The notes beneath the pieces were generated by a model. It searched no databases, was not told the origin of the DNA, and worked only from the letters and a program-made list of their open reading frames with translations. A stretch of 64,000 bases of DNA, from NCBI RefSeq assembly GCF_003086295.3, contig NC_092054.1, positions 34,750,393 through 34,814,392 of the forward strand. The letters run 5' to 3'. The translations under genes were made by a program, and so were the position numbers. The DNA comes from Arachis hypogaea (Eukaryota; Streptophyta; Magnoliopsida; Fabales; Fabaceae). Positions 20,043 through 20,080 of the stretch are shown in pieces (position 1 is the stretch's first letter; each line of letters opens with the position of its first letter).

Positions 20043-20080
20043 GTTGCTTGGGGACAAGCAACAATTTAAGTTTGGTGTTG
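20043..20080 (+). promoter_or_regulatory. Hairpin and polypurine-like tract before the 3' LTR of A
   Basis: GTTGCTT-GGGGAC-AAGCAAC, perfect 7-bp stem, then TAAGTTTGGTGT (20067-20078) and two bases before TGATGAGCGG. Position marks it as the plus-strand priming site, although it is richer in T than a classical polypurine tract. Confidence 0.75.

Follow-up and report, generated by a model that had tools for sequence, protein, structure and literature searches.

Sireviruses, which belong to Ty1/copia, carry an inverted repeat at the junction of the polypurine tract (PPT) and the 3' long terminal repeat (LTR), and its describers proposed that it aids primer formation by RNase H (PMC2829016). Its arms, about 28 bp long, flank the PPT and the LTR start; the loop contains the PPT. 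The PPTs further upstream have no such repeat. By the same source, Athila4 and Calypso have an additional PPT in their linker, and the central PPT of human immunodeficiency virus type 1 (HIV-1) and the internal PPT of Ty1 are named as internal PPTs. Here we describe a hairpin that stands directly ahead of the putative plus-strand priming tract of LTR retrotransposons in a 64-kb window (the whole stretch of DNA analysed) on contig C19 of the 2.56 Gb genome of peanut (Arachis hypogaea). The proposed module comprises, in order, a pyrimidine-rich stretch, a hairpin of 7-8 bp with an RGGA loop (R, purine), 5-7 nt and a tract AAGT(T/G)TGG(T/G)G; behind the tract comes the LTR start in the 3' copy or internal sequence in the second copy. 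The module has a constant anatomy and a narrow register, its stem shows compensatory change between families, and some elements carry two copies.

Like the Sirevirus repeat, the peanut dyad is precisely placed at the terminal PPT, and several PPT copies occur per element. Unlike it, the peanut hairpin is a tetraloop structure of 7-8 bp in Ty3/gypsy rather than Ty1/copia elements, is also found at the internal tract, and lies wholly upstream: it ends 5-7 nt before the AAGT, so that the tract is not in its loop. In Athila4 and Calypso, which are env-type Ty3/gypsy elements, the second tract lies between pol and the 3' LTR, as does the internal tract here; the PPT account in PMC2829016 mentions no hairpin for these two. 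With HIV-1 and Ty1 the peanut elements share a second, here putative, internal plus-strand origin, and that account describes no covarying upstream hairpin there. A search limited to open-licence papers found no report of an RGGA hairpin on both tracts.

Nine hairpin-tract sites in the window

The window contains nested LTR elements, designated A to G. The initial annotation had claimed a hairpin ahead of the tract at nine places, and all nine were located. Each has a 7-8 bp stem, a four-base purine loop, 6-7 nt and then AAGT(T/G)TGG. Anchored on the loop, they share one register of a 7-bp stem, the RGGA loop, a 7-nt arm, a spacer and AAGT(T/G)TGG; the spacer is 6 nt at seven sites and 7 nt at the internal sites of A and F.

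The terminal site of element A (A3, 20043..20080, plus strand; 26.0 bits in the covariance model described below) has its stem at 20043-20050/20055-20062, loop GGGA at 20051-20054 and a tract at 20068-20080 that abuts the 3' LTR of A (20081). The internal site of the same element (A-int, 18009..18047, plus; 23.8 bits) has its hairpin at 18009-18028, with loop AGGGAC, and its tract at 18035-18047; in the RGGA register it forms 6/7 pairs, the closing pair being A-C. On the plus strand, G3 (6188..6225; 23.5 bits) comprises a hairpin at 6189-6206, a tract at 6213-6225 and an LTR-like start at 6226. Element E has two plus-strand sites: E-int (54311..54349; 24.7 bits), with hairpin 54311-54330 and tract 54336-54349, and E3 (55773..55811; 27.7 bits), with hairpin 55773-55792, tract 55798-55811 and the 3' LTR at 55812. 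The other four are on the minus strand. B3 (32132..32169; 26.0 bits) has hairpin 32150-32169, tract 32144-32132 and the 3' LTR of B at 32131, and D3 (48077..48114; 22.1 bits) has hairpin 48095-48114, its outermost pair broken, tract 48089-48077 and the LTR start at 48076. F3 (59689..59727; 27.7 bits) has hairpin 59708-59727, tract 59702-59689 and the LTR start at 59688, and F-int (61432..61471; 21.5 bits) has hairpin 61452-61471 and tract 61445-61432. For element B a single hairpin site was located in the window; the part of A with the internal module is missing from B. The hairpin letters of A3 and B3 are identical, as are those of E3 and F3, and D3 differs from A3 and B3 solely at the outermost base. 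The nine sites thus represent six stem types.

In the window, both strands counted, 1020 RGGA loops occur. Full 7/7 pairing flanks 10 of them, 8 of which are claimed sites. The word AAGT(G/T)TGG occurs 20 times: eight occurrences have 7/7 pairs and an RGGA loop, A-int has 6/7, and the remaining eleven reach at most 6/7 pairs in the best of six registers, none with an RGGA loop. The annotation had stated that the hairpin always precedes the tract. This holds for the 3' LTRs seen here and for the internal places of A, E and F, and fails at the leader and coding copies of AAGTTTGGTG, where the hairpin is absent (13574, 13766 and 17154 on the plus strand; 37604, 37401 and 34076 on the minus strand). 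A and B each have two AAGTTTGGTG copies in the stretch from the LTR to gag and a third close to where the gag-region open reading frames (ORFs) end; in related loci the words at this last place repeat every 33 nt. The tract of A3, B3, D3 and G3, AAGTTTGGTGTTG, has 7/13 purines and is a putative plus-strand primer judged by position only.

A single site says little, since stems of at least 8 occur in 5.5% of 50-nt windows. RNA fold z values over 54 nt ranged from -0.07 (G3), -0.09 (D3) and -0.64 (A-int) down to -3.70 (E3), three of the nine lying above -0.7. The strength of the case rests on the fixed register and on covariation, not on single sites. The site stands out as a conserved block: between A and D identity is 0.956 at the site and 0.738 overall, with 1.9% of windows as high; for E and F the values are 0.933, 0.584 and 3.8%. 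A scan of the window at Rfam gathering scores gave three matches, none at the nine sites.

Covariation, spacing and occurrence in the host genome

The whole analysis covers one host genome. A set of 144 sites including the window, its register fixed by the loop letters and blind to pairing, had RGGA at spacer 4-8 in 96 sites, of which 75, 19 and 2 had 7, 6 and 5 pairs; 48 had no such loop. The 96 sites gave 46 distinct 20-nt hairpins. Among these, 90.2% of cells were paired compared with 56.4% after shuffling, 131 cells were changed on both sides (49.3 shuffled), and the covariation score was 0.874 against 0.262 shuffled, a value reached in 0/500 shuffles. Slid controls, in which the partner was moved by 1-3 columns and relatedness was kept, scored at most 0.186. 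Two counts did not exceed the shuffles: pairs with change on both sides (7 vs 7.4) and further pair types (22 vs 20.4). Counted from the loop, pairs 2-7 each show at least two Watson-Crick types; the closing pair is G-C in 34 hairpins, G-U in 6 and unpaired in 6, and the outermost (8th) pair is unpaired in 18/46. Within the six window types, the observed 41/42 pairs were reached in 2/720 orders of the arms, one being the true order.

A covariance model of 20 positions was built from 42 hairpins outside the window, which are copies of the same or related families. Run on the window, this held-out model ranked the nine sites first (21.5-27.7 bits; next match 14.8). With a sequence-only model the window gave no match, but this run used default filters, unlike the covariance-model search. 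The proposal that stem bases change while pairing is kept, a sign that the fold matters, is well supported by the 46 hairpins and the window-free model, and covariation in a wider alignment, set as a test beforehand, proved significant within the host genome. Stem letters differ between families with pairing kept, and the fold itself probably helps the element to copy itself.

The tract words are abundant: TTTAAGTGTGGGGA occurs 39,209 times in the host genome (17 for the reversed-pattern control) and TTTAAGTTTGGTGT 146,700 times (194), and the mixed tract TTTAAGTTTGGGG is hardly enriched (505 vs 306). By eye, many listed tract places pair on the same strand at about 1.4-1.5 or 2.0-2.1 kb, distances resembling those between the internal and terminal sites of E and A. 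A sample of 165 distinct sites was drawn by tract only from the places listed first, which all lie on contig C1, and a hairpin was called where a loop R-R-G-R was flanked by at least 5/7 pairs in the best of six registers. The hairpin was present in 132/165 (107 with 7/7, 22 with 6/7 and 3 with 5/7 pairs), namely in 83/91 GTGTGGGGA sites and 49/74 GTTTGGTGT sites. The loops of these 132 were AGGA in 102, GGGA in 20, AAGA in 5 and AGGG in 5. Of the 33 sites without a hairpin, 16 have leader-type letters (AAGTTTGGTGTC), 2 are coding repeats and the remaining 15 include some that look by eye like damaged hairpins.

Terminal-type sites were defined by TGAT or TGAC at most 6 nt after the tract (n = 75). 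The distance from the base of the 7-bp stem to this TG was 18 nt at 1 site, 19 at 45, 20 at 26, 21 at 2 and 24 at 1, so that 71/75 lie 19-20 nt from an LTR-like start. At internal places hairpin and tract recur as a unit with the same distance between them. The stretch of up to 20 nt ahead of the stem is pyrimidine-rich (0.74 at terminal and 0.80 at internal sites; 0.50 in the window). Pairing of this stretch with the tract was considered and rejected, as it did not exceed shuffles (25 representatives, mean p 0.57). In related loci the tract is often closely followed by another, variable dyad, such as GATAAACCC...GGGTTTATC; over 59 contexts its stem averages 4.08, compared with 3.49 after shuffling.

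Outside the host genome, stems of at least 6 beside GGAC were found in 3 of at least 120 stretches of viral contigs, none of them the module by eye. Two further pattern searches in viral contigs gave one match, due to chance by eye, and none. The longest ORF of E (489 aa, no Pfam match) found nothing in viral contigs, and the one pattern searched in GTDB contigs had no match.

Host elements and coding context

Three elements have paired LTRs and 5-bp duplicated flanks. Element A (11692-21710, plus) has LTRs at 11692-13321 and 20081-21710 (97.5% identical) with CTCAT at both flanks; element B (30456-39867, minus) has LTRs at 39867-38192 and 32131-30456 (95.3%) with GAAAC at both flanks; and element E (49470-57242, plus), inserted in D, has LTRs at 49470-50901 and 55812-57242 (96.3%) with AGGCA at both flanks. 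This comparison covers A, B and E, as the other ends of D, F and G are broken or outside the window. Element D (minus) is interrupted by E, and its pieces on either side align to A. Element F (minus), whose other flank lies beyond the window, ends at 58181 beside the remaining piece of D. The LTR end of F (58181-58183) is a few bases from the expected internal tract of D, and since D resumes there at position 18049 of A, F was inserted right at an internal module. Element G is known from its 3' end alone, and element C is an LTR copy with no hairpin ahead of it. No hairpin precedes the 5' LTRs of A and B; 30 nt ahead of that of E stands a 7-bp stem, but an unrelated one.

By the look of their LTRs and the size of the genome, A, B and D are putative members of the FIDEL-type elements of peanut. 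In a related locus (L134:1478-1530) a FIDEL-like LTR start (TGATGAGCGGATA) follows a GTGTGGGGA-type tract, a combination which suggests that modules have been exchanged between families. A candidate primer-binding site of A at 13328-13345, 6 nt past the LTR, may be complementary to tRNA-Asp. For Calypso and Diaspora, a primer-binding site complementary to tRNA-Asp is on record (PMC1142308).

None of 19 scanned ORF pieces of the window matched reverse transcriptase (RT) or integrase. At one related locus (L217) an ORF encodes RT_RNaseH (1-45) followed by Integrase_H2C2 (147-204), the Ty3/gypsy pol order with RNase H before integrase, and ends 819 nt before an internal module. In another (L242) the internal module comes after a gag sequence with a weak protease match. 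As A and L242 have gag and no RT in the pieces scanned, the module persists in copies that look non-autonomous. FIDEL-like copies have a Transposase_32 ORF after or across the internal module: the window ORF 18083-18613 matches Transposase_32 below the Pfam cut-off, the L196 ORF with this domain spans the internal site, and in L200, L206, L214 and L220 an ORF begins 48 nt past the internal AAGT. ORFs upstream of ten sampled sites matched Transposase_32 (3), weak protease (1), RNase H plus integrase (1), Pol_BBD (1, L159) or nothing (4); we take Pol_BBD to be a Ty1/copia domain and assign it to a neighbouring element. A genome-wide integrase search, in which 150 of 46,748 candidates were scored, gave no link to these elements.

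Several other features were observed in the window. Repeats at 31-nt spacing around TTTAACGCCAG occur in the LTRs and the post-gag region (12073-12176, 17387-17614, 20462-20565 and 33599-33764). Rfam snoR71 (RF00097) matches above its gathering score at 15465-15572 (minus) and 35667-35774 (plus), corresponding antisense places in the gag regions of A and B, and has no match in the related loci L242, L243, L217 and L213. A tRNA-Pro (AGG) gene lies at 23183-23254 (minus).

Possible functions of the module

Judged from the sequence, we give about an even chance to hairpin and tract being one cis-acting module for plus-strand priming in Ty3/gypsy-type plant retrotransposons. This reading is favoured because the hairpin is coupled to the tract, because both recur as a unit at two places, and because the hairpin is absent at the other tract copies of the window. 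The initial annotation had suggested RNase H cleavage, packaging or RNA processing as roles of the fold; the coupling to the tract speaks for primer formation. The module would help to define the RNA primer for plus-strand DNA synthesis. By the most probable route, RT copying the RNA would slow at the hairpin base with the tract just copied, and during this pause the RNase H site would sit near the tract/LTR boundary, favouring the cut for the primer 3' end. At the internal copy a further plus strand would start. A more specific version, tentative and to our minds doubtful, is that the RGGA-loop fold acts as a ruler setting the RNase H primer cut, with a terminal and an internal ruler, and that the plus strand starts twice. 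In HIV-1 the RNase H cut falls 18 bp from the polymerase site, and a pause of the RT is a proposed condition for cutting at PPT/U3 (PMC3185654); the 19-20 nt from stem to LTR fits the 18 bp of HIV-1.

Several points weigh against priming by this route. For the RT of Ty3, the nearer relative, the reported distance is about 13 bp (PMC5371799), and a cut at that distance would fall within the tract. Since the length from tract to LTR hardly varies in any case, the spacing is no proof of a ruler. Nor does an LTR start follow the internal tract. The minimum-energy RNA fold of G3 lacks the hairpin, and the site is not unusually conserved between A and B, 29.6% of windows being as high. Genome-wide counts at pair 2 of one stem are 13,785 for the C-G form and 654 and 691 for the single-change forms C-A and T-G; the T-A arm set is the commonest in the tract-only sample (28/132 sites, with either loop). 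G-U and A-C cells number 16 and 10 in 35 distinct arm sets (21 and 11 over sites). As wobble and mismatch are about equally frequent at this pair and the G-U excess is small, there is no clear sign that the RNA strand folds; the fold may act in RNA or in DNA.

An unlikely alternative is a packaging, dimer or localisation signal in which Gag or nucleocapsid recognises the stem-borne purine loop, the closeness of the hairpin to the tract being a matter of history. The loop letters are the most constant part (AGGA in 102/132) and the stem is free to vary, as expected for a loop read by a protein, and copies that have gag but no detected RT retain the module; this explanation leaves unaccounted for the 5-7 nt that couple the hairpin to the tract in both positions and the 19-20 nt to the LTR-like start. 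We think it distinctly unlikely that the fold acts at the DNA level. It would then form in single-stranded DNA, minus or plus, while strands are being displaced, for instance halting an incoming plus strand where the next tract begins, or a protein would read the dyad in the duplex. Covariation is strand-neutral, the wobble and mismatch forms are equal, and an arriving plus strand must copy the hairpin just before reaching the strand primed at the tract. However, duplex binding sites do not usually combine a constant asymmetric loop with variable arms, and the slight excess of G-U over A-C in distinct arm sets leans weakly to the plus strand.

An element acting in the mRNA, in splicing, translation or 3' processing of an ORF downstream of the internal copy, is improbable. 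The pyrimidine-rich stretch and the ORFs that begin 48 nt past the internal AAGT or, in L196, span the site are in its favour; yet no ATG-started ORF longer than 34 codons follows the internal site in 19 GTGTGGGGA-type loci, the terminal copy precedes an LTR and not an ORF, and no single frame is open through the module in all sites. That covariation merely reflects the ancestry of a few families from one hairpin, together with ascertainment, is barely credible: most sampled sites are indeed copies of few families, with 34-35 distinct arm sets of which several are decay variants, but different fully paired stems stand in one register, the slid controls keep relatedness and still reach at most 0.186 vs 0.874, and 2/720 arm permutations match the pairing of the window types.

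The choice of one short RNA primer by RT is usually explained by the geometry of the PPT itself. If the ruler were correct, priming defined by the fold rather than by the tract would explain how a tract with 7/13 purines stands in for a polypurine one. Tracts present by the tens of thousands together with a covarying hairpin amount to a natural mutant library of paired, mismatched and compensated stems, in which one can ask whether upstream structure sets primer choice. The hairpin signature could also be used to locate 3' ends and second, internal tracts in plant elements that are decayed or non-autonomous.
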